Virus record (IMG/VR): IMGVR_UViG_3300045950_000168
Span: 1-26,542 of that record
Length of the DNA: 26,542 bases
Direction: 5' to 3' (one strand)
DNA from: a virus
Under the pieces are notes generated by a model that saw nothing but the letters and a program-made list of their open reading frames with translations, did not search any database and was not told where the DNA came from. A program made the translations under genes and the position numbers. This document shows positions 3,248 to 20,698 of the stretch, in pieces (positions within the stretch are counted from its first letter, which is position 1; each line of letters starts with the position of its first letter).

Positions 3248-4438
3248 TTACACGCCGCCTCGGACAATCTGCCGATAATCATTGTGAGCGACACCACCCA
3301 TGTAGCCAAAGCGGTACCGGGTGATGATGTCCTTCTCGAAGTACGCGTCGCTGTTCGTGCCCTGTGTCAGGGTTTCCGGTCGCCAGCCCCACCGCCACAT
3401 GAGTTGTCGAGAGCAATTCCCGATGTACCACGTGGTGTTCGTGTTGATATAGGCCGACTGCACGATCTGCAAGCCCCCACGCCCCCCACCGGGACCGTAG
3501 ACGTTCGGCGCCCGGTTCGCCGTGTCCGGCGCCGTGATCGACGTGACGAGCTGCCACGCCGTCCCGTAGAGGTTCGGGTGGATCACGAGCTGGCGGGGCG
3601 TCACCATGATCTTATTACCCTTCTCGTTCACCATCTTGGCAAACAGATCGTAGGCGGCGTCTAACCCCGCTGTGTCCAGCGTGTTCGAGATCGCATTGTC
3701 ATTGACCTGCTTGTCGATGACCGTCGCATGGGTATCGGCGTAGAACTGCGCCTGCGTGATCGCCGTCCCATCGTAGACGAAGCCCCGCAAAGTGGTCGTC
3801 GTCTCTGTCGCAAACGCCGCACGCGGCCGCATCTCCAGTGTCTCGATAATCATCTGCGCCCGGTGCGCCCCGGATTCCTCCCCAATCGCCTGCGCCCGTT
3901 CGAGGATCGTGTTCGTCTGGTCGAAGCGCACCATCTCTCGACTAATGCCGATCATCCGCCCGAACTTCCCGATCCGAATCAAGACGTTCTTCTCCGATAG
4001 CCCGGTCTCCTGATAGTCCATGAACTCCGGGACTTCCAAGAGACCATCGCCGGCCCCATACCCCGCCTGCGTCGAATCCGGGAACGAGACGGCATCCCCT
4101 TCCGTCACCAACGCTCCCACGTCCCCGATCGTGCGGTCGTAGGCAGCAATGATCGTCCGATCAATGAGTTCGCCGGTGATGTTCGGAAACGCCGAGGCCG
4201 AGACTGCTTCCACCACCTGCTGCGGACTCACATTCCGGCGGTACATGATGTCCTCCGCGTTCTCGACCAGTCCCTCGAACAGGGCCCGGATCGAGAACTC
4301 GGTGGGCGACACCTTCTTGGCATCCAGCATCCGCCGGAGCTGCACCGTCATGTGATCGGCGACAAGGTGCGCATTGTCTGCGCCGCATTCCTCGACGTGC
4401 TTCTGCCGCCACTGCTGAATCTGATCTTTCCGTATCAT
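3248..4438 (-). CDS. Major capsid protein, HK97-fold type
   Basis: 396 residues from ATG 4438 (AGAGGA just upstream), a usual size for an HK97-fold capsid subunit. Sequence supports this fold loosely: a helical N-terminal arm (residues about 1-60), an extended region with LIDRTIIAAYDRTIGDVGALVT, a long P-domain-like segment (GREMVRFDQTNTILERAQAIGEESGA), and a C-terminal part with beta strands around NTTWYIGNCSRQLMWRWGWRP and a final YRFGYMGGVAHNDYRQIVRGG. Position is decisive: directly after protease/scaffold and a small decoration-like gene. A longer open frame upstream to 4618 overlaps the preceding gene and is not used. It should form the icosahedral shell of the head after scaffold removal. 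Confidence 0.88.
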   Translation of the reverse strand: MIRKDQIQQWRQKHVEECGADNAHLVADHMTVQLRRMLDAKKVSPTEFSIRALFEGLVENAEDIMYRRNVSPQQVVEAVSASAFPNITGELIDRTIIAAYDRTIGDVGALVTEGDAVSFPDSTQAGYGAGDGLLEVPEFMDYQETGLSEKNVLIRIGKFGRMIGISREMVRFDQTNTILERAQAIGEESGAHRAQMIIETLEMRPRAAFATETTTTLRGFVYDGTAITQAQFYADTHATVIDKQVNDNAISNTLDTAGLDAAYDLFAKMVNEKGNKIMVTPRQLVIHPNLYGTAWQLVTSITAPDTANRAPNVYGPGGGRGGLQIVQSAYINTNTTWYIGNCSRQLMWRWGWRPETLTQGTNSDAYFEKDIITRYRFGYMGGVAHNDYRQIVRGGV

Positions 4439-4460
4439 TCCTCTGTCACCCCCTTCATGC

Positions 4461-4934
4461 TTACGTGTCTGCCTTGTCCCAGAGACCAGCCCCAGCTGCT
4501 CGGGCCCCCACGACCTCCCGACTATCTGTGAACACCTTGACCGGCCCCGTGCCCGCCGTGTCAAGTTGCTGCATCGACCAGAAGATGATGTCCACCCCAC
4601 TTCCGGCATCCGCCGCAAACGTCCAGTCCGTCCCGTTCGCGCCCGCCGAGTAGATCAACCCGTCGCCGATGTCCAGGGCCGTCGCCGAGGCGAGCGTCAC
4701 TCGACATGTGCATCGGGTGGCAACCACGATCGGGAACGTCTCTCCATTCAGCGACGCGTGGAGCGATGGCCCAATAAACGTGTCCGAATCGGCTGCCGCA
4801 TCCACCACGACGGCTAGATCCGACGCAAGATTGATCAGATCCCCCGGTGCCACGAGCGTCGCCGAGGCAATCGGCACGTCCACGAGCGTCAGGGCGTCGT
4901 AGCCGGTGATTGTGATATTACTGGTAACTGCCAT
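4461..4934 (-). CDS. Probable head decoration protein
   Basis: 157 residues, ATG 4934 preceded by GGGGGAAGAGG. The sequence is rich in Ala, Thr, Val and Asp with short alternating beta strands and no transmembrane segment; examples are ITITGYDALTLVDVP near the start and GTDWTFAADAGSGVDIIFWSM near residue 105. Such small beta-rich proteins encoded between the prohead protease and the major capsid protein are commonly capsid decoration or stabilising proteins. That assignment rests on gene order and composition, not on a recognised motif. It is spaced 21 bases from the upstream protease gene and 22 bases from the capsid gene. Confidence 0.65.
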   Translation of the reverse strand: MAVTSNITITGYDALTLVDVPIASATLVAPGDLINLASDLAVVVDAAADSDTFIGPSLHASLNGETFPIVVATRCTCRVTLASATALDIGDGLIYSAGANGTDWTFAADAGSGVDIIFWSMQQLDTAGTGPVKVFTDSREVVGARAAGAGLWDKADT

Positions 4935-4955: not shown

Positions 4956-5357
4956 TTAATGGCCGAGAATCGCTAAGCACACCTCATCCGAGGCCGTCCC
5001 CGGCGTGAGTGTCCCATTCGTACTATCCGATGCCGTCGAGGCTCGGACACCGAGGTTCGTCGGCTTCCCACTCGTGCGGAAGACCACCGCCTCTTGCGCC
5101 GCGATCGCCTCCGCCACCTTCTCCGTCGGCAACGCCATGAGCATGTCCACGAATGTCGGCGAGACCAGATGCTTCGGCAGCCGTGAGGCCGAGACTTGCT
5201 CCTCGATCTGCTGGCGATAGGCTCGGACCCGCTCTGCCTCCTCGATCTGCGCCTGCTTCGTCTTTATTTCAGCATGTCCCTGCTCCAGTGCTGCCAGCCG
5301 GGTCGTCAGCGGCGAGAACAGCTCGGTGATTGCTTGTCGAATCTCCTCATCAGTCAT
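4956..5357 (-). CDS. Possible internal-start product: free scaffold domain
   Basis: Inside the protease gene, ATG 5357 is in frame and is preceded by GAAGGGGG at eight bases, a good ribosome site. Translation from here would give a 133-residue protein starting MTDEEIRQAI, which is precisely the coiled-coil scaffold-like tail without the protease. In-frame internal starts that make a separate scaffold are established in other phages (lambda C/Nu3, for example). This is inferred from the sequence only. Confidence 0.45.
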   Translation of the reverse strand: MTDEEIRQAITELFSPLTTRLAALEQGHAEIKTKQAQIEEAERVRAYRQQIEEQVSASRLPKHLVSPTFVDMLMALPTEKVAEAIAAQEAVVFRTSGKPTNLGVRASTASDSTNGTLTPGTASDEVCLAILGH

Positions 5358-6581
5358 GGTATTTTCCCCCTTCTCCGTGTGTGTGATCCCCCCGGTCTGC
5401 GCTTCGGCGTACTCGCCGATCTTAGCGGCCTTCAAGAGCCGCTCCACTTTTTCCCGCACGGCCTGCGGGATACCAAACATGATCTTCTTGCCCCGGAACT
5501 GCCCGGTCTTCAAAATGGTGGAAATCGCCCGCAACGCCCCCTTGTAGATCGTGTTCCCCACTTTATACGGGAGATGCCACGTCCCTTTCACAGCAGGATC
5601 ACCCACGATCAAGTGATCGTCTGCGGTGAGCGTCGCTTTGTCCACCTTCCCCCATGAGGCGTCAGAGAACGTGTAGCCTTCACTTGCATCGAGCATCGTC
5701 CACGTCACGTCCGCATCGCCGGGCAGATCGGTTTCGTGCACCGCATACCCGAAGAGGTCGAGATCCATGCCACACGAGGCCATCACGTTCCCATAGCGCT
5801 CGATCAGCACCGACCAGTCAATCTGCGACAGGAGATCACGCAAGTCCGTCAACGCCTTATCAAACGCAACCGACTTGTCCTCATCGGTCGCTGGATTCCC
5901 TGGATGGTGGATGTTCTGCATCACCTGATTGAACTCGCTCCACACGTCCCAGAGTTTGTCTCGCTCAGCAGAGGCTTTCTGTCGCTCAGCGTGCACGGCC
6001 TTCACATCCATCATCGACATCGGAAAGTTATTGTTCTGCATCGCTTCTCCTTCCTCGTCACCCATCGCCTGCAAGACATGCATGACGTGCCCTCCCGCCG
6101 ACGGGAACGCCACGAAGTCCGCTCTGGCTCGCAGCACTTCCTCCACCACATGCCCCGTCCGGCCTTCGGCCTCCCCTCGCGGATTCACCCGCACCTGCGC
6201 ATCAATCGAGAGACCCACCTCCGAGGGATGCGCTTTCGCCTCATCATAGAACCACGACGTGCGAGGATTCGTCGTCATTCGCAATTTCGCCATCGTCATC
6301 CCGTCACCCGCCCACGCCTCTTGCACGGTCGCCGCCCAATCCAAGAGCGAGCGTCCAACTTTCTTCGTCTGCTCATCGATCTTGTGGTCGGCGAACGTCT
6401 TCCGTGAGGCCAAGAGTTTCTCCGCAAACGACTCGGCCACGCCCTTCGAGTAGTAGCGACCGTTACCTGACCAGCCCGCCTGAATCACCCGCACGACGAC
6501 TTCCTTCGCCGCATCATCGAACGACGCCTCGGTCAGGTCTTGCGTCACCAACACATGCTGAAGTTCCGTTGCCACCATCAT
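4956..6581 (-). CDS. Prohead protease fused to scaffold-like C terminus
   Basis: 541 residues. Residues about 28-165 match phage prohead proteases: a GWSGNGRYY motif (37-44), TFADHK with His66, GLSID with Ser125, then HVVEEVLRARADFVAFPSAGG (144-164), the usual end of the protease domain. A middle region (about 180-390) contains a short domain with DASWGKVDKATLTADDHLIVGDP and LPYKVGNTIYKGALRA. The last 130 residues (from about 409) are a charged coiled coil, ALEQGHAEIKTKQAQIEEAERVRAY, as in scaffolding domains. The protein should guide prohead assembly and then cut scaffold and capsid. ATG 6581 lies only two bases after GGAG; ATG 6578 is better spaced and may be the true start. The gene follows a promoter-terminator leader. 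Confidence 0.85.
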   Translation of the reverse strand: MMVATELQHVLVTQDLTEASFDDAAKEVVVRVIQAGWSGNGRYYSKGVAESFAEKLLASRKTFADHKIDEQTKKVGRSLLDWAATVQEAWAGDGMTMAKLRMTTNPRTSWFYDEAKAHPSEVGLSIDAQVRVNPRGEAEGRTGHVVEEVLRARADFVAFPSAGGHVMHVLQAMGDEEGEAMQNNNFPMSMMDVKAVHAERQKASAERDKLWDVWSEFNQVMQNIHHPGNPATDEDKSVAFDKALTDLRDLLSQIDWSVLIERYGNVMASCGMDLDLFGYAVHETDLPGDADVTWTMLDASEGYTFSDASWGKVDKATLTADDHLIVGDPAVKGTWHLPYKVGNTIYKGALRAISTILKTGQFRGKKIMFGIPQAVREKVERLLKAAKIGEYAEAQTGGITHTEKGENTMTDEEIRQAITELFSPLTTRLAALEQGHAEIKTKQAQIEEAERVRAYRQQIEEQVSASRLPKHLVSPTFVDMLMALPTEKVAEAIAAQEAVVFRTSGKPTNLGVRASTASDSTNGTLTPGTASDEVCLAILGH

Positions 6582-6590
6582 CGCTCCACA

Positions 6591-6629
6591 AGAAAAAGCC
6601 GAACACCGCAGGTTCCTGGATGTTCGGCT
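6591..6629 (-). terminator. Intrinsic terminator just before the protease start
   Basis: On the minus strand a 9-bp perfect stem AGCCGAACA/TGTTCGGCT (plus-strand arms 6597-6605 and 6621-6629) with a 15-base loop is followed by TTTTTCTT. It has a T-run only in the minus direction. It lies downstream of the promoter at 6674-6703 and ends just before the protease ribosome site, so it must be bypassed for capsid gene expression from that promoter. Confidence 0.85.
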
Positions 6630-6643
6630 CACTTCGACAGCCG
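6625..6643 (-). promoter_or_regulatory. Possible antiterminator hairpin competing with the terminator
   Basis: Minus-strand CGGCT (plus 6639-6643) can pair with AGCCG (plus 6625-6629) over a nine-base loop. AGCCG is also the first five bases of the terminator stem, so the two hairpins exclude each other. The helix is short but GC-rich. The arrangement resembles an attenuator; function is inferred. Confidence 0.4.
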
Positions 6644-6673
6644 CTCTATCTGGACTCTTCTCAACTATCTCTC

Positions 6674-6703
6674 AAGATACAGCGACCCCTCCACGCTTGT
6701 CAA
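6674..6703 (-). promoter_or_regulatory. Sigma70-type promoter of the capsid operon leader
   Basis: Minus strand TTGACA (plus 6698-6703), 18-base spacer, TATCTT (plus 6674-6679). The -35 is a perfect consensus and sits in a small palindrome GCTTGACAAGC. Transcription would begin near 6667 and meet the terminator after roughly 40-75 bases. It lies in the 145-base gap after the HTH gene. Confidence 0.75.
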
Positions 6704-6726
6704 GCAAAAAATCATCAGCTATGTTC

Positions 6727-6924
6727 CTATTTGTCCCCGTTTATCCCATTTTTTTTGAAAGTATGCGGTTGAAGCATGGCATCAACCACCATTTTCAGAA
6801 TCCGCCAATGACCATGCCCCACCCGAACCGCCGGAAGTTTCCCCTCAGCAATCCACCGCCGCACCGTCTTGGGATGCACAGCAAAGCGATGTGCCACGAT
6901 GTCTACCGTGTAATACTCTGTCAT
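6727..6924 (-). CDS. Small excisionase/MerR-like HTH protein
   Basis: 65 residues from ATG 6924, which overlaps the stop of the previous gene as ATGA. Residues 5-41, with TVDIVAHRFAVHPKTVRRWI and then AEGKLPAVRVGHGHWRI, are a clear winged HTH of the excisionase/MerR kind: helix-turn-helix, the WI-x-EGKLPA turn and the R-V-x-x-x-x-W-RI strand. It should bind DNA. It is the last gene of the connector block and lies immediately upstream of the capsid promoter, so it could control that promoter, an inference from position alone. No integrase is near, so an excision role is not supported here. Confidence 0.85.
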   Translation of the reverse strand: MTEYYTVDIVAHRFAVHPKTVRRWIAEGKLPAVRVGHGHWRILKMVVDAMLQPHTFKKNGINGDK

Positions 6925-7223
6925 CGGGCCCGCTCCCACGCCGCACACAAGGCGGCAGCGTCATGTTCGGGCACAACAGTCACCTCTTCAGTCAGCGTCA
7001 GGACGCGTCCCCGCTTGATTTTCAAGAAGAGGCGACCATCGTACGCCGGATTCACCATCCGCTGGCTCAAGGCGTCCCACACCATCCACCATGCCACGCC
7101 TCCCTCAGCCTGCTCATGCTCGTCATCGACGATCCGCCGCAACGAGTCCGCAAAGTAGGAGAGCGCCACACGCCATTGATGCAGTGTCCATCCCTGCGGA
7201 GGATCAGGCATGTCCATCATCAT
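6921..7223 (-). CDS. Small protein of the connector block, function unknown
   Basis: 100 residues, starting with three consecutive ATG codons at 7223/7220/7217 behind GGAGGAGG; the first overlaps the previous stop (TCATGA). It is mainly helical with conserved-looking aromatic residues (GWTLHQWRVALSYFADSLRR, AWWMVWDALSQRM) and ends with a beta-like segment. No cysteine motif or membrane segment. The longer open frame to 7358 runs into the preceding gene and is not used. It lies in a row of roughly 100-residue genes between MuF and the capsid operon, where head-completion and neck proteins are expected, but no motif confirms such a role. Confidence 0.7.
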   Translation of the reverse strand: MMMDMPDPPQGWTLHQWRVALSYFADSLRRIVDDEHEQAEGGVAWWMVWDALSQRMVNPAYDGRLFLKIKRGRVLTLTEEVTVVPEHDAAALCAAWERAR

Positions 7224-7537
7224 GACGGCCTCCTCCGACGAACTAACGGCACACCATTTGGATCGATCAAGCCACCACCCCCACCACCAAACATCTGCTG
7301 AATCACTTGCTGCACGACCGGCACCATCGTTTGTTGCAAAGTCACGGTGTCCACCCACGTTGTCGCATCATCCAGCACTCGAATCAGATCGTGGAGATGC
7401 TCTCCTAACGGAAACTCCGCATCCCCCACGATCTCCGTGCGGCGAGAGGCATGCAACACCAACGTCACCCGGAAGATCGGAGGACTTTCCGTCGGGGCAT
7501 CGGGAAACAAGGCATCAGACCGTAATTCCGCCATCAC
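7220..7537 (-). CDS. Small protein with poly-Gly tail, function unknown
   Basis: 105 residues. AAGGAG lies seven bases before a GTG at 7537 and ten before an ATG at 7534; either may be the start. The first half is beta-like (IFRVTLVLHASRRTEIVGDAEFPLG), the second is helical with Gln/Val (TVTLQQTMVPVVQQVIQQMF) followed by six glycines and a short basic tail. The next gene overlaps its stop. The flexible Gly stretch suggests a hinge or a disordered C terminus. I do not recognise the family; location suggests a structural component. Confidence 0.7.
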   Translation of the reverse strand: MMAELRSDALFPDAPTESPPIFRVTLVLHASRRTEIVGDAEFPLGEHLHDLIRVLDDATTWVDTVTLQQTMVPVVQQVIQQMFGGGGGGLIDPNGVPLVRRRRPS

Positions 7538-7551
7538 ATCATCACTCCTTT

Positions 7552-7887
7552 CTAGCTAAGCAGTACAACGTCGTGTGCGGTATCCCACGCCACAAGGAAT
7601 CGGCCAAGCAACACCTTCCAAACATTGACCTCACGAATAAGGGATTGAAACTCACCAGCCGTGTTCTCGACCACCACGTCCGGGCATCGCTCACGCACAG
7701 CCAGTTCCAAGATCGCCGTCAAGTCAGTGCGTCGTCCGATGTCGAGCACCGACCGCCACGACGCCTGCCAATGACGACAGACGAAGCACCGGGTCGCTTC
7801 CAGACGAGGAGCTTCCTGCGCCAGCGGCGTCACGTTGTGATACGAACCGGCGTACCGTCGATCATAAGGACGATAGAGCCACCTCAT
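7552..7887 (-). CDS. Small protein of the connector block, function unknown
   Basis: 111 residues from ATG 7887, overlapping the previous stop (ATGA). It begins MRWLYRPYDRRYAGSYHNVTP, has a CFVCRHWQ segment (single Cys-x-x-Cys) near residue 35, then alternating helical and beta segments (DLTAILELAVRERCPDVVVEN, WKVLLGRFLVAWDTAHDVVLL). Longer reading to 8010 is rejected because it would overlap the previous gene by over 100 bases. No recognised family; part of the overlapping chain 7220-8799, which is probably co-translated. Confidence 0.7.
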   Translation of the reverse strand: MRWLYRPYDRRYAGSYHNVTPLAQEAPRLEATRCFVCRHWQASWRSVLDIGRRTDLTAILELAVRERCPDVVVENTAGEFQSLIREVNVWKVLLGRFLVAWDTAHDVVLLS

Positions 7888-8228
7888 GGGATCGCTCCCT
7901 CCGGTAACGGCGGCAGGGGAAGCGATTCTGGTTGCCGCACGAACCGTATCCGAAAGATCGGGTCTCGCCCGCCCGTCAGGTTCCCGCTCATCACGGCAAT
8001 CTTGCCCCACCGGGTCAGATCCCCTCCGGCGAAGACGCCATAGAGCGGAGAGTAGTGCAAGCGATCCACGTCGGTCATGAAGGTCAGCACGATCTGCCGC
8101 AAATCCTCTGGGCCAACGATCTCGATCTGCCCATCCTCCGGGTCTTGGGTCGCTTCATCGGAATGGAAGAGCACCCGGACAGTGCGGAACGGCTTCGCAC
8201 GAGTAATGAGGCGAAGTTCATAGGTCAC
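7884..8228 (-). CDS. Small beta-rich protein of the connector block
   Basis: 114 residues from ATG 8228, overlapping the previous stop by ATGA. It starts with a beta strand (TYELRLITRAKPFRTVRVLF), has an acidic segment (EATQDPEDG), then a helix (PEDLRQIVLTFMTDVDRL), SPLYGVFAGGDLTRW and a final Pro-rich tail. A pattern of strand, helix and PLYG is faintly like small phage baseplate or neck proteins, but this is not strong enough to name it. Function unknown. Confidence 0.7.
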   Translation of the reverse strand: MTYELRLITRAKPFRTVRVLFHSDEATQDPEDGQIEIVGPEDLRQIVLTFMTDVDRLHYSPLYGVFAGGDLTRWGKIAVMSGNLTGGRDPIFRIRFVRQPESLPLPPLPEGAIP

Positions 8229-8491
8229 GGAGTCCCTCCCGCTGTGGTGCAGACATCACCACACCACCACTGAATCATGTCTGCCGTCTGCAATGGTCGC
8301 CAGTCCGTCGGCGACGGCGAAACACCGAACAACACGCTCCGTTGACATTCGAGAACCAACAGTCGCCGCTCAATCTCATGAAGTTCCTGACGCACCTCGG
8401 CCACCTCGTGTTGCAACGCGGCCAGTAGTTGTCCCACCAGCTTAAGGCTGTCAGGAAGCAACAGCGTCAACGCCTCGGCATCAATCATCAA
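8225..8491 (-). CDS. Small coiled-coil protein
   Basis: 88 residues, ATG 8491 overlapping the previous stop. Residues about 10-52 form a Leu/Glu-rich heptad-like helix (LVGQLLAALQHEVAEVRQEL continuing into HEIERRLLVLE), predicted to be a coiled coil. The C-terminal third has WRPLQTADMIQWWCGDVC with two cysteines. Coiled-coil proteins of this size occur in phage neck and tail-initiation complexes, but nothing here fixes the role. Confidence 0.7.
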   Translation of the reverse strand: MMIDAEALTLLLPDSLKLVGQLLAALQHEVAEVRQELHEIERRLLVLECQRSVLFGVSPSPTDWRPLQTADMIQWWCGDVCTTAGGTP

Positions 8492-8799
8492 CCATCACCC
8501 CTCTCATCCGTATGTGCCTGAGCCGCAGAGCACGATGCGCTGAGACGCTTTCCAGTCCTGAAATTCCACCGTTCCACTTCTATTGTTCCTCCTAAATCCT
8601 CCTCCGCTGAGACATGGCGGAGGCAAAACCGATACTCGATCCCGTCATGGTCACGCAGCCGACCAACCTCTCCTGCGGCAAAGACATTCATGCGATACTG
8701 CAACCGCTGTGAGACGCCGGTGATCTGCTCAACCAGCAACACCAAGAGCCGCAGACCCACACACTCCTGACACGCACACTTAGGAGAAGCCTTCATCAT
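8488..8799 (-). CDS. Small Cys-rich N-terminal protein, function unknown
   Basis: 103 residues from ATG 8799 (TGATG overlap with the previous stop), behind GGAGGGGGAGG. The N terminus has CACQEC within residues 8-13, which could hold a metal with His/Cys residues further on (FCLRH near residue 58). The rest has charged helical and short beta segments and a low-complexity Ala/Ser tail. No recognised family. Confidence 0.7.
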   Translation of the reverse strand: MMKASPKCACQECVGLRLLVLLVEQITGVSQRLQYRMNVFAAGEVGRLRDHDGIEYRFCLRHVSAEEDLGGTIEVERWNFRTGKRLSASCSAAQAHTDERGDG

Positions 8800-9044
8800 C
8801 AGTCCTCCCCCTCCTTTCGCTTACTCTGCATCTCCTCAAGAAACCGGTCGATGTCCCGACCAACCGCCGTGCTCGACGACCCTTCCTCTCGTCGCATCGC
8901 TCCATCCCGCCAATCCACCAACAGCACGGTGGGAACCATCACGACCCAAAACTGCCAGTCCGCCAATCCGATCCCACAGAGTCCTAATGCAAGACCCAAC
9001 CAGCATGCCCATGCAGAACGTCGTAACCATCGCCACATCGTCAT
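8799..9044 (-). CDS. Small two-span membrane protein
   Basis: 81 residues if started at ATG 9044 (AGGAG close upstream) or 79 at ATG 9038, whose spacing from AGGAG is better. After a basic Trp/Arg N terminus come two hydrophobic segments (WACWLGLALGLCGIGLADW and FWVVMVPTVLLVDW) and a charged tail with DRFLEEMQSKRKE. Two short transmembrane helices in a late phage gene suggest a holin-like or spanin-adjacent role, but no lysin is seen nearby, so this is only a possibility. Confidence 0.7.
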   Translation of the reverse strand: MTMWRWLRRSAWACWLGLALGLCGIGLADWQFWVVMVPTVLLVDWRDGAMRREEGSSSTAVGRDIDRFLEEMQSKRKEGED

Positions 9045-9049
9045 TTCTC

Positions 9050-9151
9050 CTACTCTCTCGTTGCCCACGCCATGCACCCAAAGTCGGCGACCGTCCACAA
9101 CCGACCCCCACCCACTGTTACCGTCCAGTTGGCCGTGTCTACTTCAGCCAT
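9050..9151 (-). CDS. Very short ORF, 33 residues
   Basis: ATG 9151 to TAG 9050. The product starts MAEVDTANWTVTVGGGRLWT and ends with DFGCMAWATRE. It overlaps the upstream short ORF by 13 bases and ends six bases before the membrane-protein start. No clear ribosome site, so it would depend on coupling to the upstream ORF. Its composition looks protein-like (balanced charge, beta-prone). Function unknown. Confidence 0.45.
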   Translation of the reverse strand: MAEVDTANWTVTVGGGRLWTVADFGCMAWATRE

Positions 9152-9273
9152 GGACGGTCAGTCATAAGGTTAATGATTTCTATGTGGGAAATGGCCGGTT
9201 CCCATTCCCGCACCGGCGGGCGGTAGTCGGCGTCAGCAAGGGCACGCCCCTCGCACGTATTCCAACCGGACAT
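9139..9273 (-). CDS. Very short ORF, 44 residues
   Basis: ATG 9273 to TAG 9139, overlapping the end of the 104-residue gene by 41 bases in another frame. The product contains ALADADYRPPVREWEPAISH and ends IEIINLMTDRPWLK, a composition typical of real small phage proteins. GGAGGTGA lies about 13 bases upstream, rather far. It fills what would otherwise be an empty 188-base gap in a compact operon. Function unknown. Confidence 0.5.
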   Translation of the reverse strand: MSGWNTCEGRALADADYRPPVREWEPAISHIEIINLMTDRPWLK

Positions 9274-9547
9274 CAGGCGTCGATGTCACCTCCCACAACA
9301 TCTCGTTGAGGGATTCCAGCGCTCGCTCATCAGCCAAGCGGGGAGCAAACGAAACCACCCGGATCGCCGGATCGGTGATCCGCAGATGCACCGGGACGTT
9401 CTCTCCGACTCCTCGCACCAACCGCACACCTCGTTGAAGTATCACACGAGCCATATCCTCCGAGGTCGCCTCCACCGCCAAGCGCAACCACAAATGTCCC
9501 TCATGATTGCGCAATCCCCACCGAAACAATCCGTTCAAAAGTGCCAT
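9233..9547 (-). CDS. Small protein of the connector block, function unknown
   Basis: 104 residues from ATG 9547, with GAGGAAAG some 12 bases upstream. It opens ALLNGLFRWGLRNHEGHLWL, continues with a helix (ATSEDMARVILQRGVRLV) and a beta region (VPVHLRITDPAIRVVSFAP), and ends GACPC. The alternation of helix and strand suggests a compact alpha/beta fold. No motif identifies it. It lies 36 bases after the previous gene. Confidence 0.7.
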   Translation of the reverse strand: MALLNGLFRWGLRNHEGHLWLRLAVEATSEDMARVILQRGVRLVRGVGENVPVHLRITDPAIRVVSFAPRLADERALESLNEMLWEVTSTPDVRLEYVRGACPC

Positions 9548-9583
9548 CTGTCGTTTGCTTTCCTCAACATTTCCAGAATGTAC

Positions 9584-9895
9584 TCACGCATACCACTTCA
9601 ACGTGGTATCGAAGATGCGCACGCCTTCCCAATAGCCCAACGCCACGAGCGTCTCTGCCATTAACTCATTCACCTCAGAATACCGGCCTTCCACATCCCC
9701 CTCGTTACGCTCATCTCCCTTCCCATAGAAGCCGGTTTCCCAAAGGATCGCCAGCATCCGATCCCGGAAGACTTCGGGCGAAAGAGGTGACAAACGGATA
9801 CCATACTCTCGCCCCTCCTCTGAATGCAAACACGCCATCACGAAGCCCCCGCAGGCTTCACACCATTCTCTGGTCGGCTTTTCTTGGCGCATCAT
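9584..9895 (-). CDS. Small zinc-knuckle-like protein
   Basis: 103 residues from ATG 9895, which overlaps the upstream stop (AAATGATG) and has GGAGGTGG nine bases before. The N-terminal segment REWCEACGGFVMACLHSEEG has Cys-x-x-Cys, then Cys-x-His, a plausible zinc site at residues about 12-22. The rest is helical and acidic (SEVNELMAETLVALGYWEGV). No recognised family. A longer frame to 9922 is disfavoured because the ribosome site lies inside it. Confidence 0.7.
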   Translation of the reverse strand: MMRQEKPTREWCEACGGFVMACLHSEEGREYGIRLSPLSPEVFRDRMLAILWETGFYGKGDERNEGDVEGRYSEVNELMAETLVALGYWEGVRIFDTTLKWYA

Positions 9896-10047
9896 TTGGA
9901 AACCACCTCCACAGATAAGCAATTCACTCCAAACTCTTCGCTAAAATACTTCTTAAATTCTTCCAAGTCGTTTACAGGCACAACCCACCGCAGTTCATCC
10001 TCCCCCAATGATACGTTCTGCACGATGCGCATGCCTAAAGGCGTCAT
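9892..10047 (-). CDS. Small ORF; independent gene or 3' part of a frameshifted gene
   Basis: ATG 10047 is preceded by AGAAGGAG at six bases, a strong site, giving a 51-residue product that starts MTPLGMRIVQNVSLGEDELR and contains DLEEFKKYF. However the same frame remains protein-like upstream of that ATG (RLPYVAYVEVGSMIWESLMA), back to about 10115, where the preceding ORF (10089-10229) would join it if one base were added near 10113-10117. So it may be the C-terminal part of a single 112-residue or so protein. Function unknown. Confidence 0.6.
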   Translation of the reverse strand: MTPLGMRIVQNVSLGEDELRWVVPVNDLEEFKKYFSEEFGVNCLSVEVVSK

Positions 10048-10088
10048 GCTTTCTCCTTCTAACGAGCACGCCATAAGGCTCTCCCAGA

Positions 10089-10229
10089 TCATCGATCCAA
10101 CCTCGACATAAGCAACATAAGGAAGACGTCTACCGTCGCATCAAAGAAAGCCTTTTCCAACGTCTGCAACGTCAAAGGAAAATCACTCGTCGTGAGCATG
10201 GTTGAGGCCATCAAGTGATCATTTGCCAT
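10089..10229 (-). CDS. Small ORF, possibly 5' part of a frameshifted gene
   Basis: ATG 10229 to TGA 10089, 46 residues, 20 bases after the MuF stop with GAGGGTG upstream. The product starts MANDHLMASTMLTTSDFPLT and runs LQTLEKAFFDATVD, then ends VFLMLLMSRLDR, a less protein-like tail. The overlapping frame downstream is protein-like, so a one-base loss near 10113-10117 would explain both. Function unknown. Confidence 0.5.
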   Translation of the reverse strand: MANDHLMASTMLTTSDFPLTLQTLEKAFFDATVDVFLMLLMSRLDR

Positions 10230-10249
10230 CGTTTACACCCTCACAACAA

Positions 10250-13099
10250 TCAGAGTCCCGGAATCTGTCCCCGGAGAATCCCGGCAATGAGGTAAAAATG
10301 CTCCGGGTCGGCTTGCCAGAACGTCAGCATCTTCTGCAAAGACACGAAATACGGAAGCCCCATGCTCAAGACCTCGGAATGCCCCACCTTGGGATACACT
10401 TTTCCCACGTAGGCATCCATCCACCGATCTCGTTTAGTCTGTTCCGTTTCCTCGAAATGGTCATCGTAGAGCGAGCGCAACGAGACGGCTCGCTCTCCTC
10501 GTGTCCGATCTCGATAGAAATCCCGAAGAAGAGTTTGCACATGGAGATTCCGATACTCCAAGAAGTGTCCGAACTCATGGAGCAGCTGATCCTGACTCAG
10601 GTCTGACAGCGCAATCCGTCCCGCCCAATGATACCCCCGCCCCAACGAAGTCGTCACGACACCCAACGGTAGAGTTTCATCTCCGGCTGATCGCAGCACA
10701 CGAGGAGCAATCTTCTTCAAGAACTGCGACAGCATCACCTGAATCGGTTCTTTCCACGAAGCCCGATAGAACTCGGTCAACGGTTCTTGATCCGGCGACC
10801 ATCGGTCGAACGGGAACAGATCCGCCACCGTCATCCCCAAATCTTGCCATGTCCCCCCACCAGCGAAATAGCGTTCCACGTGTTGCCCCATCTCTGGCGA
10901 AATTTGTCGAATATATGCTTGCAACAATGGCTCCAACGCCGCCTTCTGCACGACCACGACTTCCTGCCACGTCTGCGGCGGGCCCGTCACTACCATCGGT
11001 CGAGCAAAGATCCGCAAAAAGTCCCGACGGTCGACAGCATGATAGAAGCGTCCCTCCACGTCCTTCCGCAGATACAGTCCCAAGACCCGGGCCCGCTCGT
11101 TGAACTCCTGCCAGGGCACACCGGCGATCTGCTGTGCTCGCTCCACCGGATCAGCGGACAACTTTCCCCGTAACGAGAACAGCCAGTCATCCGCCTGTGC
11201 TCGCACCCCATCGGGAATCTGTCCATCCAGTCCCATCCCGAAGAGGTTCTGCCCATAGATGCCAGCCTCGTCAGGAGCATCCTTCACCGCCATGCGCAGG
11301 AACACCCGCTCAGCATCCGCCCGGTCCCGAGAATCAAGGGGCGTCAATAGCGCACGGTCAGCCGCCGTGCTCGCCCGATAACTCCCATCAGTTGCCGTCC
11401 CTAACCGGATCTTGGGATAGGACAATCCACCAAGATCGGGCAAAGTGGCCCGGAGTTCCGTCGCTGTCTTGGGCACGAACCACCCTTGCTTCTTCGTCAC
11501 CAGTGCCTCAAGGGGAAATCGCTCGGCTTGCCAGAGCGCATGCACAGCCTTCCCCATGATCCGTTGCTGATCCACCTCCGCAAGGTCATGGAACTGCATC
11601 CACATCGGCGGATGCGGTCGCTCCTGTCGTGTCCACGCCACTTGCGCCTCTTTCGGCAGAGACGCCCGGTCAAATCCCAAGTCTTCAAGGGATTTCACCA
11701 CCGGCGTCAACAGACACATCCCGTTCGGATGGTCGATGAGCGGTACGCCCAATGGGTAGCGTGTGCCGTCCATGATCAAACAATTGTGCACAGCAAAGCC
11801 GTTGGCATAATACGACTCATCCTCCTCCACTTCCAAATTATACACCCATCCGTCATAGTCGATGCGCTCGATTGACATCACCCGTTGTGTATGATGCCCG
11901 CCCAACGGCGCATCGGTCTGCACCATCGAGGTCACGGTCAACGCTCCGGCCGGAACCCACCCACCTGGCGTCAAAACGTGATGCTCCGGCGTGACTTTCA
12001 GGATGCGTCCCACGCCGTCGTGAAGCACGACTAGCTCCCCACGATAGGATCGTTGCATCGTGGCCGTGACTCGTCGTTGCCGCCCCATGTGCGTCAAGAT
12101 CATGTCGCCGACGTGCACGGCATCGATCAGGTGATACCGTCCGCCAACGTGTACTAACGTGGACGGCGGACAGCATGCCACGCAGGGCCTCCCATCGGCC
12201 ACTCGCTCCATCTCCGCCACGACTGGGTTCTGTTGGGCAAAATAGGCGACCGCCGCATTCACCGCCCGATTGTGGGACGTGCGCAGCACCCGCATGACAT
12301 GGTAGGCTTGCCCATGCCGGGGATCCGCCGTCTCCCATTCCGTCGTCAGATGCTGCATGATCCGATCCTTCGTCCACCCCAAATCTTGCCCCTTGATCAT
12401 CGCCCCCAACAACACGCCTTGCACGAACTTAAGATGCTCCGTCGAGAGCGTCGTGATGAGGCGCCCCGGATCGAGGTCGGCGTCCACCTGATCCCGGAGG
12501 AAGCGCAGAAACTCCGGGGCCAACTTGCCCGTTCCGATAGTGATCGTCACCGGATCAGCCTCCGTCAGCCCCAACGTTGCCTGTCCATACTCCTGCCACA
12601 CACCGACGCTCTCCCAGACCAAGGCATGCACCATGTCTTCGGCGCAGTGAGCACAGGTCATGGCTTCCTGCACCAGCTTCCGCAACTCCCGATCTGGGAA
12701 CATCAACGATAAGGGCATCTCCCGAAAATCTAAGGAGGTCACAGGAATCTCTGGAACCGTCACGACATTTGCAGGATACAGCGTTGCAAGGAGTGACACC
12801 AAGCCATCCCGCATCACCAGAAATCCCTGTTGCTGATACACCTGTGCCAACTTGGCGATCTGCTCGTACTGGTCTTTGATCACCCGATGCAACGCATTCA
12901 CGAATGACCGTCGCCAGCGAAGCCACAGGGCATAGTCCAGCCGGTCATGCTGCACCATCGCCGAGAGCCACTCATCGGCCACCTGTTGAAGACGACCATC
13001 CAGCTCTTTCAAGAGCGATTGCGCCTGCCAGAGCATCACCGCATCTCGGCGGAAGTGGGACTGCTGTTGGTCAAGCGCAAAGGTGCGAAGAGAAATCAT
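10250..13099 (-). CDS. MuF-type minor head protein with mini-intein and C-terminal zinc-protease-like domain
   Basis: 949 residues including an intein (309-439). Residues about 240-308 and 440-465 are the MuF/gpF-like head morphogenesis module: TKDRIMQHLTTEW, VLRTSHNRAVNAAVAYF, DGRPCVA, and after the intein CLIMDGTRYPLG and DHPNGMC. Removing the intein restores Cys-x-x-Cys-x-x-x-Asp-Gly, as in MuF proteins. The portion about 540-830 is a long region without recognised motif. Residues 841-845 are HEFGH, within LLHEFGHFLEYRN, and SEVLSMGL follows at 908-915 with Glu909 as a candidate third ligand: a zincin-type metallopeptidase signature. The gene follows portal and a 68-residue ORF, the normal MuF position. 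MuF proteins sit at the portal vertex and may enter the cell with DNA; the C-terminal enzyme could be an injected or assembly protease, which is inference. Confidence 0.88.
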   Translation of the reverse strand: MISLRTFALDQQQSHFRRDAVMLWQAQSLLKELDGRLQQVADEWLSAMVQHDRLDYALWLRWRRSFVNALHRVIKDQYEQIAKLAQVYQQQGFLVMRDGLVSLLATLYPANVVTVPEIPVTSLDFREMPLSLMFPDRELRKLVQEAMTCAHCAEDMVHALVWESVGVWQEYGQATLGLTEADPVTITIGTGKLAPEFLRFLRDQVDADLDPGRLITTLSTEHLKFVQGVLLGAMIKGQDLGWTKDRIMQHLTTEWETADPRHGQAYHVMRVLRTSHNRAVNAAVAYFAQQNPVVAEMERVADGRPCVACCPPSTLVHVGGRYHLIDAVHVGDMILTHMGRQRRVTATMQRSYRGELVVLHDGVGRILKVTPEHHVLTPGGWVPAGALTVTSMVQTDAPLGGHHTQRVMSIERIDYDGWVYNLEVEEDESYYANGFAVHNCLIMDGTRYPLGVPLIDHPNGMCLLTPVVKSLEDLGFDRASLPKEAQVAWTRQERPHPPMWMQFHDLAEVDQQRIMGKAVHALWQAERFPLEALVTKKQGWFVPKTATELRATLPDLGGLSYPKIRLGTATDGSYRASTAADRALLTPLDSRDRADAERVFLRMAVKDAPDEAGIYGQNLFGMGLDGQIPDGVRAQADDWLFSLRGKLSADPVERAQQIAGVPWQEFNERARVLGLYLRKDVEGRFYHAVDRRDFLRIFARPMVVTGPPQTWQEVVVVQKAALEPLLQAYIRQISPEMGQHVERYFAGGGTWQDLGMTVADLFPFDRWSPDQEPLTEFYRASWKEPIQVMLSQFLKKIAPRVLRSAGDETLPLGVVTTSLGRGYHWAGRIALSDLSQDQLLHEFGHFLEYRNLHVQTLLRDFYRDRTRGERAVSLRSLYDDHFEETEQTKRDRWMDAYVGKVYPKVGHSEVLSMGLPYFVSLQKMLTFWQADPEHFYLIAGILRGQIPGL
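11783..12175 (-). other. Mini-intein (HINT domain) within the MuF gene
   Basis: 131 codons, protein residues Cys309 to Asn439, with Cys440 as the first C-extein residue. Block A is CCPPSTLVHV with the nucleophile Cys1 and Thr6; block B is VTPEHHVLT with the Thr-x-x-His pattern; block F is DGWVYNLEVEED and block G is FAVHN followed by Cys. The His-Asn-Cys end and Cys1 are the complete splicing set, so it should be active. There is no room for a homing endonuclease. Choosing Cys309 rather than Cys310 restores the host motif spacing CVACLIMDG and the usual Cys1-to-Thr6 distance. Confidence 0.92.
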
Positions 13100-13434: not shown

Positions 13435-15345
13435 TTAGAGTTGCAACCACTGTTGCAATCGCTCCATCTGCGCCGCCGTGAAGTCCCCGATGCCTTCCAC
13501 TAAGTCCTGATACGCCCGCTCCCGCACCGACCGAGATTGCTGACGCCACGAGACCCCGTCACCGGCCTCGCCTATCCACAGCCCCTCACCCAATGTGTAG
13601 GAGGGCGGCATCGGCGTCGATTGCATGACCTTGAGGTCGTCCGCATGCTCCTGCCGGAGGAGTTGCCGGAGCATCTTCCGATGCGCCAGCTCCTCTTGCC
13701 AGTCCAGTCCCAACTTGGTGAGCAGTGTCCGCTGGCTAACCCCCAACTGTTGCCAGATGACCAAGGCTTGTGCTTGCTCCAACGGCGATTCATGGATCAT
13801 CACCGGAAACACGATGTCCAGTGGCGCATCTTCCGTCGGAATCGTCACCGTGTGCTCCGATTCTGTCAGAACGGGGCGGACGGCCTCGATGATGGTCTCC
13901 AAGCGCTCATGCGCCAGCAGTCCGGTGATCACCATGTCGATGGCCTCCCACAGAGCTTCCTGCGTGTAGCGAGTGATCGTGATCTGCTCCGGGAGACGTT
14001 TCCCCCACACGGCGGCTCGAAGAATCACCCGGCACATCTCTCGAAAGGCATCATCCCAAAAGTCCTGATACGAGAGGATCTTCTGACTATACGGCGTGTC
14101 GGCCTTGCGGATGCTGGCATAGACCTCGTTCTCCGCATTCTGGTCAAGGATGTGCAACGGCGTCCCAACGCCAGCTCCCGCCGTGTAGAGGCACGCCTTT
14201 CGCACGATCTCACCATCAGCCGCCGCCATGTTCGGAGATTCCGACCGATACGTCACGTTCTCGGATTCCCGCAACATGATCCCCCCCGGCGGCGACCGAC
14301 GTTCCCGTTGCGTGGTCTCGTCCAACCGCCCCACGATCTTCTGAAACCAGATCACCTTCGATTGCTCATGCCAGCGGCGTTGCGCATCGATCACGCATTC
14401 TTCCGCCAGCTTGAAGAACTTGAGGCTGGCTGCTAGGGGCACACGGCCACGGACTTCTTTGTCCGGGCCCAGCTTGATCTGCTGAATGAAGATCGTCCCG
14501 GACGTGTCATCGATTCGCCCTTCCAGTTCCTCATGCTGCGTCGAGCGCAGATCCCCATTCTCCGGGTCATTCGCCAGCCGTGCATAGTACTCGATGTCAG
14601 CGTAGTAGCGATCCAATCGCTCCATTCGACGAGCGAACTGCCGACGATACGCCAGCCGGGTCTCTGCATCCTCCGGGTGCGTCTCGATCTCCGGGATCTC
14701 TTTCGGCGGGATGTCCCGAAGCGTCACCCGTCCATCGCCTTGCACGAAGTACGCCAGATAGTATTCGCCCTCGACGTAGGCGCTCTCCACCATGTCTTTG
14801 TGGCGCATGTTCATCCGATTCCGTGTCCAGCATTCCCGGAGCACGTCGTCCACCTCCCGCACGGATGAACTGATCATCACGCCCCGCCCGATCGTGTAGT
14901 GACTGACGTTCTCCACCTCCGACTTCACATGCGGGTCCTCGTGCCACTTCTTCCATGCCGCATCTTGCATCGCCCACAGTTCGGCCACCGTTTGGGCCCG
15001 GGTCGCATCTTCGGGCGACGCCACGCCCAACCGCCACCACCCTTTGATGTCCTCGTACTTCCCTCGATCCAACGCCTCCTGGATCTGCGCACCCGTCAGA
15101 TGCCCGTACTGCTGCCATGCCCTCTTGATCGTCAGTGACTCGGCCAGCTGAAGAGCTTGGGCATACGTCACCTCCCCGACATCCTCCCACCATGCGTCAC
15201 CACTCCCATTCCGCCGTGTCGCATCCCACCATCGTCGTTCCTGAAACTCCCCAGACGTGTAGGCTTCTTGCAACGAGGCCCGAATCGCCCCAGCCGAGGT
15301 TAGCACCGGACGATGCTTTTGCCACCATGCTCGTAATCGTCCCAT
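13435..15345 (-). CDS. Phage portal protein
   Basis: 636 residues. Placement after terminase and before MuF, together with size, supports portal. Sequence elements agree: an N-terminal helical arm, a region around VSHYTIGRGVMISSSVREVDDVL and WTRNRMNMRHKDMVESAYVEGEY, the beta-rich wing (GRVTLRDIPPKEIPEIETHPED), and the stem/crown helices with SPNMAAADGEIVRKACLYTA and GVGTPLHILDQNAENEVYAS, a pattern typical of phage portals (residues with the GxP-x-x-x-L-D preceding a helix). The C-terminal part (TLLTKLGLDWQEELAHRKML) is the usual domain that lists target regions of the P22/SPP1-like portals. Twelve copies should form the DNA channel, docking terminase outside and head-tail adaptors below. The start ATG 15345 is six bases after the upstream gene. 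Confidence 0.87.
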   Translation of the reverse strand: MGRLRAWWQKHRPVLTSAGAIRASLQEAYTSGEFQERRWWDATRRNGSGDAWWEDVGEVTYAQALQLAESLTIKRAWQQYGHLTGAQIQEALDRGKYEDIKGWWRLGVASPEDATRAQTVAELWAMQDAAWKKWHEDPHVKSEVENVSHYTIGRGVMISSSVREVDDVLRECWTRNRMNMRHKDMVESAYVEGEYYLAYFVQGDGRVTLRDIPPKEIPEIETHPEDAETRLAYRRQFARRMERLDRYYADIEYYARLANDPENGDLRSTQHEELEGRIDDTSGTIFIQQIKLGPDKEVRGRVPLAASLKFFKLAEECVIDAQRRWHEQSKVIWFQKIVGRLDETTQRERRSPPGGIMLRESENVTYRSESPNMAAADGEIVRKACLYTAGAGVGTPLHILDQNAENEVYASIRKADTPYSQKILSYQDFWDDAFREMCRVILRAAVWGKRLPEQITITRYTQEALWEAIDMVITGLLAHERLETIIEAVRPVLTESEHTVTIPTEDAPLDIVFPVMIHESPLEQAQALVIWQQLGVSQRTLLTKLGLDWQEELAHRKMLRQLLRQEHADDLKVMQSTPMPPSYTLGEGLWIGEAGDGVSWRQQSRSVRERAYQDLVEGIGDFTAAQMERLQQWLQL

Positions 15346-15713: not shown

Positions 15714-16025
15714 TCATCGATAATCCCGAAATCTCGCCGCCGTCCGGGAATCCCGCTTAAGCACATCCAAGAGCCAACCGTTCGGGACGCGCACACTTGA
15801 CCGCCGCAGGATCGCCCACGGCGCACTATGCATCTGTGGCAACACATACGCCACCAACGGCCGTCCCTCGTCATCAGCCGCTTGCACACTCACTTCCAGT
15901 TTCACCCGTTGCGTCGGACGCGTATTGATCTCAGCACAGATCGCCGTGATGTCCGTAACTAGCGTCGAGAACGCCTCCTCGTCAGACGCCGGTCTCGGCG
16001 TAGAACGGATCTTCAATGTAGCCAT
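15714..16025 (-). CDS. Small protein overlapping terminase 3' end
   Basis: 103 residues from ATG 16025, with AGGAG about nine bases upstream, overlapping the end of the terminase gene by 44 bases. It has a helical N-terminal half (DEEAFSTLVTDITAICAEIN) and beta segments (RVKLEVSVQAADDEGRPLVAYVLPQ). The C terminus is basic (RDSRTAARFRDYR). The longer frame to 16109 is rejected for greater overlap. Function unknown; location suggests a packaging or head protein. Confidence 0.65.
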   Translation of the reverse strand: MATLKIRSTPRPASDEEAFSTLVTDITAICAEINTRPTQRVKLEVSVQAADDEGRPLVAYVLPQMHSAPWAILRRSSVRVPNGWLLDVLKRDSRTAARFRDYR

Positions 16026-17478
16026 AGTCTTCTTGCTCCTGTCGTGTGAGCCGTCGCCCCCAGCGACAACTCCCGCCCCCATAGGCCGGATCCTCGGGAA
16101 TATCAACATCCTGCATCGGACGCAGGTAGCGGGAGGCCAATGTCACCGCCCCCTCCAAGGCATCAGGCCCATCAACATACGCTGGTAGGGTATCCAATTG
16201 ACAGCCGAGGAGTTGATCAATCAAGAGGGGATACCGCGTCCGCCAATCCTCGGCAACCCGCAGTTGCCCTCTCGCAAACAGGGGTTGGAGCGTCCCGATC
16301 CGTCCGGTTTTGTCGGTCCGATGCGACACACCCTCAACCGGCAGGTACGTCGTCCGCTGTGACCGCAGATCCGCCACCAACCGCTCCTGAAAGTTATTGT
16401 CCTCGATGCCAAATCGAGCATACCGGTAATAGGCATGCTTCTGCGCAATCAAGGCCAAGAGCGCATCGGGCGGGATGCGTTGCAGGTCGGCATCAAGAAT
16501 ATCCAGCGTGCCATGCGCTGGATCAACTCCGACGGTCACAACTGCCGAGTAGCACCCTAAATTCGACCGCCCCAAGGCAGGATCGCAAAATCCGACGATA
16601 GACGGGTACGCAGCAACTCCAGCAAACGGAAACGTCACCATCTGTGACAAGTCAAACATCGCCGTCCCGACAGGTTGGGGATCGATAAGGTATTGCGCCG
16701 CAAAGTCGGCCGCCGGAAGAGTCAGGCGGATCTCCTGTAACGTCTCCTCCGGCAAGATGTTGGGGTACCGGGGTGTCACTCCATCGGGGAGATAGGCTCC
16801 CTCCGCCTCCACGACATACCGATCACGAGGAGTCAGTGACGGGTTTAGGACTTCCCGAATATAGTGATAGAGATCGTCGGGATGCCATGGTGTGCCCACA
16901 ACCAGGATCTCCCCTCCCTCATCCAGCAGGGAGATCGCATCCTGAAAGAATTGAATCTTATCCCGCCGAGCCAGTGACGATGCCCGATCTCGATTGTTCA
17001 CGAGATCATCGAAAATCATGAGATCATAGTGCGCAGACACCAGCGTCGAGCCGTAGCCACACACATTGATCGAGAGTTCTTTCGCCGGACGCGTGCGAGG
17101 ACGAATGTTAATACCTCCCTCATTCCATTTGTCCGACATCCAATCCCCCACTAAGTCCCGGAAACGAGCATTCCGCTCACAATGCCCTTTGATCTCCCGC
17201 AGGAACCCGATAGCATTTGTTTCCACAGCGTTGACTAAGAGAATCCGGAGGTTCGGATTCGCAATCAACCGTCGAATCGCATAACTGATCGTGTAAAACG
17301 TCGTCTTATAGGTCTTACGCGGTCGGAGGATCAAGCGACGTCGAGCCGGCTGGTAGTCGAGTCGCCGTCCCCACTCCCCGTGCACGTCCGGGTCAAGGCG
17401 GGTGTACCCAAGGATATACCGAGCTAAGAAAAAGGTGTCCTCCCGAAGACGAGCAGTAATTTCTTGTTCTGGCGTCAT
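15982..17478 (-). CDS. terL: Terminase large subunit
   Basis: 498 residues. The ATPase half has a deviant Walker A (LRPRKTYKT, residues 51-59), Walker B (LMIFDD, 153-158) and a motif III with VVGTPWHPDDLY (193-204). The C-terminal nuclease half carries the three RNase H-like acidic sites: CDPALG with Asp299, GIEDNN with Glu359/Asp360 and VDGPDALEGAV with Asp436/Asp439. The protein cuts concatemeric DNA and pumps it through the portal. Its start overlaps the small subunit by ATGA, a standard TerS-TerL pair. The length is usual and no lesion is seen. Confidence 0.97.
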   Translation of the reverse strand: MTPEQEITARLREDTFFLARYILGYTRLDPDVHGEWGRRLDYQPARRRLILRPRKTYKTTFYTISYAIRRLIANPNLRILLVNAVETNAIGFLREIKGHCERNARFRDLVGDWMSDKWNEGGINIRPRTRPAKELSINVCGYGSTLVSAHYDLMIFDDLVNNRDRASSLARRDKIQFFQDAISLLDEGGEILVVGTPWHPDDLYHYIREVLNPSLTPRDRYVVEAEGAYLPDGVTPRYPNILPEETLQEIRLTLPAADFAAQYLIDPQPVGTAMFDLSQMVTFPFAGVAAYPSIVGFCDPALGRSNLGCYSAVVTVGVDPAHGTLDILDADLQRIPPDALLALIAQKHAYYRYARFGIEDNNFQERLVADLRSQRTTYLPVEGVSHRTDKTGRIGTLQPLFARGQLRVAEDWRTRYPLLIDQLLGCQLDTLPAYVDGPDALEGAVTLASRYLRPMQDVDIPEDPAYGGGSCRWGRRLTRQEQEDYGYIEDPFYAETGV

Positions 17479-18503: not shown

Positions 18504-19285
18504 TCACGTTTCTTCCGAAGAATTTTCTGCGAGACAATGTTCTTGGACAATTTCACAAATCTTGAGCATTTTCGCTGTAAGGTTCAGAACATTATATTTC
18601 TCTTCAACACATCGCAACATCCGCAAAAACGATGAATACCACTCCACCGGAAGACAATAAATAGACGAACAGGATTCCCCATCACGCTGAAGCAACACTT
18701 CGGCATACTGTAACGCTCGCTCAACATGTTCTTGCTCTCCCCCCAAAAACACAAACGGAACAACAACCGTATCAAACTTCGGTGGAGTAATCGTGATCAA
18801 AGCCATGCCTTCCAACACACGAAGCAGATCATCAGTAAACCCCACATATTCTTTCAGCCCAACATCTTCAATCTGCGACCATAATGTTCGCAAAATCACC
18901 GGATCATCTTTTCCCTCAATCGCATTATGACTTAATTGAATAGCAATCTGTTCTTGTGCTGCAACGGGCGATCAATAAAGAGAACGAGAAACGATGATAA
19001 TCCTGCATCAATTCCTGCCTTCACACGATGATTACCTGACAAAACAAGGTACTTCTGCGTCTCAGGATTAAACCAGCAAAACGGCACACTGCTTAAATAC
19101 CGATCTTGCTTGATATTGGCAACCAACTGAGCATACACTGGTTGTTCCATATAGCGTGCATTCACCAACACAAACTCCAAATCTTCTTGAGGCACAATAG
19201 CTAATTTTAACCCATCCGTTCCATATAACTCAGCTAAATGCCTGTTCAGCTGATCAAGCACGTGTTGTACCGCAACTCCCGTCAC
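18504..19285 (-). pseudogene. ParB-like (nuclease/N-terminal domain) protein with frameshift
   Basis: The 5' frame runs from GTG 19285 (GAGAGG six bases before) to TAA 18932 and includes the ParB-like core KYLVLSGNHRVKAGIDAG and FLVLFIDRP. Right after, the second frame reads AAQEQIAIQLSHNAIEGKDD and goes on to 18504 (VILRTLWSQIEDVGLKEYVG), which is the usual continuation of this ParB family (IAIQLSHN-x-I-x-GxDD). Adding one C in the ggg at plus 18966-18968 joins the frames into a single protein of about 260 residues. No slippery sequence is present, so this is a mutation or a sequence error rather than programmed frameshifting. ParB-like domains here usually accompany DNA methyltransferases; it lies next to one. 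Confidence 0.8.
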
Positions 19286-20603: not shown

Positions 20604-20624
20604 ACATCCCCACGAGAGAAAAGG

Positions 20625-20698
20625 TGGAGCGGGATGTTGGACTTGCACCAACCCTTCCTTCTTGGAAAGAAGACTATGCGTCTCTACACCAACCCCGC
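20625..20698 (-). tRNA. tRNA-Gly (anticodon TCC)
   Basis: Minus strand, 74 bases including an encoded CCA. Acceptor GCGGGGT pairs with ATCCCGC (one G-T wobble), discriminator T, then CCA. The anticodon stem TCTTC/GAAGG holds loop TTTCCAA, so the anticodon is TCC. The T arm GTTGG/CCAAC has loop TGCAAGT. The D arm is short and partly wobble-paired (GTGT/GCAT, loop AGAGAC), missing the usual GG. Acceptor start and discriminator T are typical of bacterial tRNA-Gly. Its first base is the last base of the upstream gene's TAG stop. Confidence 0.85.

Follow-up and report, generated by a model that had tools for sequence, protein, structure and literature searches.

An intein-containing MuF minor head protein with an accessory, predicted zincin module in a phage packaging region

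The gene at 10250..13099 (minus strand, ATG start) encodes a 949-aa precursor that, judged from its sequence, is a MuF minor head protein interrupted by a mini-intein and extended at its C-terminus by a module of a zincin family that is widespread in phages. Fusions of MuF with metallopeptidases have already been published, as have inteins in MuF proteins, but it is unusual to find the two additions in the same head protein. The explanation that we favor, with moderate confidence, is that the precursor splices and that the protein thus formed would carry a zincin at the portal vertex, from where it would be ejected with the DNA.

The window, that is, the whole stretch of DNA analyzed here, is a 26.5-kb record and possibly a fragment. 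The ORF, which the earlier note had read as a MuF head protein with a C-terminal metalloprotease motif, is genuine, and it lies in the packaging module, with the order terminase-portal-MuF-capsid and all of these genes on the minus strand. Upstream of MuF comes the portal protein gene (13435..15345; phrog_10963, E 9.7e-11), with the large terminase gene (15982..17478; phrog_38, E 6.5e-68) further upstream, while the major capsid protein gene (3248..4618; PF25209, E 3.4e-22) is adjoined by a minus-strand candidate head-maturation protease/scaffold gene at 4956..6632 (phrog_3017, E 5.7e-5; N-terminal part phrog_15531, E 0.003). Single-protein searches of IMG/VR with the terminase, the portal, or the whole MuF-zincin protein returned no relatives.

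The MuF-type head module of the earlier note holds once the insert is removed, and its domain layout has to be revised, as the mini-intein at residues 309-439 had been overlooked. The precursor as read does not match PF04233; the intein interrupts the MuF domain and so makes it hard to detect. Because this profile is not reached even after in-silico splicing, MuF membership is supported instead by PHROGs, homologues, a motif, and gene order. The spliced sequence matches head-morphogenesis PHROGs (E 9.5e-6 to 2e-4) and, by tblastn, the minor head proteins of Dp-1, LuckyBarnes, and Mae-JY09, and splicing in silico restores the CxxC...DG...HPN motif, which then reads CVACLIMDG...DHPNGMC.

The N-extein comprises residues 1-308 (12176..13099, minus strand), which form the N-terminal MuF part as defined by the head-morphogenesis PHROGs of the spliced protein and by alignment to three intein-less MuF proteins from Clostridium and related contigs (L139, L140, and L141), and it ends in ...DGRPCVA. 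The 131-aa mini-intein follows at the CxxC motif (11783..12175, minus strand; CCPPST...FAVHN), with Cys440 as the +1 residue, and the C-extein, residues 440-691 (11027..11782, minus strand), starts with CLIMDGTRY...DHPNGMC, the second half of the MuF motif, and reaches to the end of the similarity with the closest relative, L136. The identification of the insert relies on several lines of evidence: TIGR01443, the profile for the C-terminal splicing region of inteins, reaches 36 bits (cutoff 15.6); PF14890, applied to the isolated segment, reaches 40.8 (cutoff 35.8); the RadA intein of P. horikoshii is a sequence match (E 4e-6); and for a model of the insert (pLDDT 71) a fold search gave 49 matches in the PDB (E <= 1e-3), those listed belonging throughout to the HINT superfamily (inteins, hedgehog autoprocessing, and bacterial intein-like domains). 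The segment is too short to hold a homing endonuclease.

Empty insertion sites were found in L139, L140, L141, and Mae-JY09, which read CxLCxxRDG...DHPNGMC. Across the junction the spliced sequence gives a single unbroken alignment (E down to 7e-12), whereas the precursor gives fragments only. The insertion point is the second Cys of CxxC, and a DNA pattern for this type of intein-MuF junction retrieved five further MuF inteins at the same site (L127, L129, L130, L133, and L136), which occur in MuF proteins of otherwise different phages. Four of the six same-site inteins measure about 300-330 aa and two are minis, the 131-aa one of the window and that of L136 with 134 aa. Since Cys1, the block-B TPxH, His438, Asn439, and the +1 Cys440 are invariant in the alignment of the six MuF inteins, the insert has the residues of class 1 splicing, and the precursor would be expected to be active in splicing.

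Inteins within MuF proteins are known from the Mu-like prophage F of Methylococcus capsulatus (PMC517821), whose MuF intein is reported, like that of the window, to be without a recognizable endonuclease, from the capsid morphogenesis protein of Jerseyvirus (PMC8425127), and from Gordonia phage Nordenberg. In Jersey, Nordenberg, Malisha, and the Vibrio phages 1.265.O and 1.266.O, which have the better-known MuF inteins of phages, the insertion point is HPN|C, unlike the second Cys of CxxC that is used in the window and in L136.

The relative that the junction pattern retrieved as L136 (IMGVR_UViG_3300020171_000019, a 76-kb record) allows the role of the two additions to be separated. Its MuF protein is 48% identical to residues 1-691 of the window protein, intein included (44% within the intein itself), and stops 15 residues past the last aligned position; the genes downstream of MuF are syntenic (47-69% identical), and the capsid and scaffold/protease genes are homologous (47-50%, the product of the 4956-6632 gene being 50% identical to that of its syntenic counterpart). 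Conversely, the module made of residues 692-949 (10253..11026, minus strand) has no match anywhere in the 76-kb record, although the same query was positive in two control records. As judged by this syntenic comparison, the zincin is an accessory, exchangeable C-terminal cartridge and no core part of the head. The stretch of small ORFs between the MuF and the capsid protease/scaffold genes is several kb long in the window (6632-10250) and about 0.6 kb in L136 (2523-3121), and the extra small ORFs suggest that the zincin module may have come in with neighboring genes.

Two other readings are affected by this comparison. One is that the HINT domain cleaves without splicing, as bacterial intein-like or pretoxin-HINT domains do, and thereby releases the C-terminal effector; a weak match to PT-HINT (E 0.0015) and the best fold match, 2lwy, which is a bacterial intein-like domain, speak for it. 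Nevertheless, the set of splicing residues is complete and invariant, the MuF motif resumes past the insert, and L136 retains the insert with no effector to release, so that we judge this reading unlikely and the splicing mini-intein remains the preferred one. The other, already raised in the earlier note, is that the zincin is the head-maturation protease of the phage and cuts capsid or scaffold, as its place in the head module and its attachment to a portal-vertex protein could suggest. This role has become highly improbable and was set aside, because L136 does without the module while keeping homologous capsid and scaffold/protease genes, because the 4956-6632 gene is a separate, weakly supported head-protease candidate distinct from the zincin, and because CRISPRi against ddrB of phage P1, which encodes a zincin of the same family, does not stop plaques (PMC10695390).

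As for the zincin module itself, the motif HEFGH is indeed found at residues 841-845 (10565..10579, minus strand) and Glu909 (10373..10375, minus strand) within SEVLSMGL, residues 908-915, as the earlier note had placed them. Taken alone, an HExxH is weak evidence, since it arises in 6.3% of shuffles of the 949-aa protein; its conservation among family members makes it more than a chance occurrence. By tblastn, the C-terminal 203 residues match minor head proteins from phages of Lactococcus, Flavobacterium, Geobacillus, and Bacillus and, less strongly, P1 DdrB (E 0.7). Two viral scans yielded 101 loci (an alignment of 12 zincin sequences was too divergent for scanning, while smaller alignments worked), and 71 distinct and divergent proteins, 19-31% identical to the window, were aligned. 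H841, E842, H845, Y897, E909, and D931 are invariant in all 71, with the proviso that some loci were retrieved with patterns containing HE..H, whereas E909 and R821 were absent from every pattern; R821 is kept in 68 of 70 aligned zincins, position 848 holds E in 67 proteins and D in the other 4, and R865 and E886 are nearly invariant. The conservation of His841, His845, and Glu909 among homologues, on which the earlier note had let its proposal stand or fall, is thus complete.

The module is accordingly predicted to be a gluzincin-like metallopeptidase, with His841, His845, and Glu909 as metal ligands and Glu842 as the base, and it would bind zinc and act as a protease. A model of residues 700-949 is confident (pLDDT 87, pTM 0.86), and its secondary structure is consistent with this assignment: HExxH lies inside one helix (helix 137-151 of the modelled fragment), and Glu909, part of a [TS]E[VI]xSMG motif, directly precedes a later one (helix 211-220). 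In a fold search against BFVD the model matches phage proteins down to E 4e-9. The profile comparison with metallopeptidase families that had been proposed along with the structure prediction gave no such match: a Pfam search of the module up to E 10 returned nothing at all, and the best solved structures, anthrax lethal factor-type zincins, are not significant (E 0.63, TM 0.34). When the zincin alignment was run as a profile against the PDB, only aristolochene synthase, a chance match, and alkaline proteases at E 0.7 came up. The ligand set is intact and fully conserved, with a consistent secondary structure, and the module has no match among the Pfam families. A structural, catalytically inactive module in which the motif is a fossil would agree with the accessory nature of the module in relatives and with the missing Pfam peptidase match, but this reading is hardly credible, as both histidines, the base Glu, and the distal Glu are kept in all 71 proteins at 19-31% identity, in the manner of an active site.

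The lethal factor-type zincins remain the best PDB fold neighbors of the model, and Iyer et al. (PMC5512222) reached the same fold group in a profile search with an N4 domain; we make no claim that the window protein belongs to the anthrax lethal factor family or shares its target. On the basis of the aligned residues, the module at 692-949 is a member of a phage zincin family that is widespread and to which P1 DdrB also belongs; the homology of DdrB, given the weak sequence match, is recognized mainly through invariant residues that the two proteins share, namely R, HExxH, E, Y, and the distal Glu. Similarly, the zincin metallopeptidases of polyvalent proteins (PMC5512222) have the HExxH in one helix and the distal Glu beside another. 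The partner domain differs, as it is MuF in the window and ParB-like in these polyvalent zincins and in P1 DdrB. Closer in architecture are the minor head protein of Lactococcus phage 62503, gp28 of Flavobacterium phage pippi8-1, and gp3 of Geobacillus GBK1, which are MuF or minor head proteins with the same terminal zincin; unlike the window, they are without an intein and have a small ORF immediately downstream. One phage record (G003, which holds L018) has two neighboring ORFs of this zincin family, at 41164-41484 and 42543-42911.

Where its partner domains can be recognized, this family points to the virion. A Pfam search of 71 full-length zincin ORFs found PF04233 in at least 40, a portal domain in 4, and minor capsid protein 2 in a single one; the ORF of the window alone contained an intein. 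The P1 head contains DdrB, which is co-ejected with the DNA (PMC9024508, PMC12810830), and these attachments, together with DdrB, favor a virion-borne protease. Of the two roles considered in the earlier note, a protease injected with the DNA is thus plausible as far as its presence in the virion is concerned, while its ejection is argued from homologues only, P1 DdrB in particular. Metallopeptidase domains were also reported by Jamet et al. in 20% of putative MuF toxins (PMC5576092), with which the window protein has in common the MuF N-terminus, the variable C-terminal extension, and the location in the packaging module; the comparison with L136 displays the same trait, an exchangeable extension on a conserved MuF part. 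It departs from these toxins in two ways: an intein interrupts it, and directly downstream there is no small ORF of the immunity-like kind seen in the family.

A further possibility, which we take seriously but do not expect to hold, is that the zincin is autoproteolytic and separates the MuF part from the C-terminal part at assembly or after entry, with no host target. Iyer et al. proposed self-processing for the phage zincin class and cited cleavage of P1 DdrB before packaging (PMC5512222), and zincins do sit in large multidomain proteins. On the other hand, at least 40 of the 71 proteins are MuF-zincin fusions, in which self-release of a protease would need some further purpose, and autoprocessing is in any case compatible with an ejected effector.

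The ejected effector remains our preferred explanation, and it can be laid out as follows. The MuF minor head protein would be synthesized as a precursor with a class 1 mini-intein at residues 309-439, which would excise itself and join Ala308 to Cys440, restoring the CxxC...HPN motif in a mature protein of 818 aa (949 minus 131). This protein would become part of the head at the portal vertex. The interchangeable zincin in its C-terminal third would ride in the virion and, ejected along with the DNA, reach the new host; there it may free itself, cut a host or defense protein, or do both. What counts against this explanation is the lack of a Pfam peptidase family, the E of 0.63 with solved zincins, and the lack of an immunity gene of the usual type downstream.

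This last point concerns a feature of the family as a whole. Among the loci numbered L001-L116, 65 of 81 have a small ORF (<=125 aa) that starts between -40 and +30 nt from the zincin stop, most commonly with a 4-nt overlap of the ATGA type; examples are L012:4515-4820 (P1 hxr), L003:6401-6673, and L030:6315-6572. Such ORFs are mostly 70-105 aa long, often acidic, and usually translationally coupled to the zincin gene, and none was found beside ten MuF genes without a zincin. Their C-termini are peculiar, as 38 of 63 distinct small ORFs end in [VIL][YF] compared to 15 of 813 other ORFs of the same loci (Fisher p ~1e-37, a value inflated by relatedness). The small ORFs form 20 BLAST clusters, in 11 of which at least half of the members have this ending; one cluster ends mostly in -V[ST]. 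Searches against Pfam gave nothing convincing, a few of the proteins match PHROG families, none with a named function, and no mention of the [VIL][YF] tail was found in the literature searched.

Jamet et al. regarded small downstream ORFs as possible immunity genes (PMC5576092), and it is possible that the product of the small ORF is an inhibitor or immunity partner of the zincin; that it plugs the active site is a guess. In a speculative, rather doubtful extension of this guess, the two genes form a system in which the coupled small protein plugs the active site with its free -[VIL][YF]-COOH end, as a product-like inhibitor, up to the packaging or ejection of the protease. The window would then be a variant that has lost the partner and has an intein in MuF instead, which could delay the assembly of active particles. 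The MuF gene of the window has no partner of the family type directly downstream (9892-10229, minus strand), where only a 46-aa ORF (10089-10229, +21 nt) and a 66-aa ORF (9892-10092, +158 nt), neither of a recognizable kind, are found.

Elsewhere in the window, a 490-aa ORF with DAM-like-phage1 and GNAT-phage-like domains (19254-20726, minus strand) shares its 5' end with a tRNA-Gly(TCC) at 20625-20698; the ORF probably starts further downstream, at about residue 41. On the minus strand at 20969-22628, two ORFs, one ParB-like and the other for a DNA methyltransferase, have 11 nt in common, and each matches a different part of phrog_498: this region is either a split form of a fused ParB-methyltransferase or a frameshift.

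These observations have consequences for annotation and for the study of head-borne zincins. The mini-intein conceals the MuF domain from Pfam and leaves the protease on an apparently anonymous protein, a pitfall for annotation. The window and L136, with the same MuF protein and intein and with or without the zincin, provide a clean natural comparison for the function of a zincin carried in the head. Finally, the coupled small ORF of the zincin family and its conserved tail offer a testable idea of how a packaged protease may be restrained, for instance with ddrB and hxr of phage P1.
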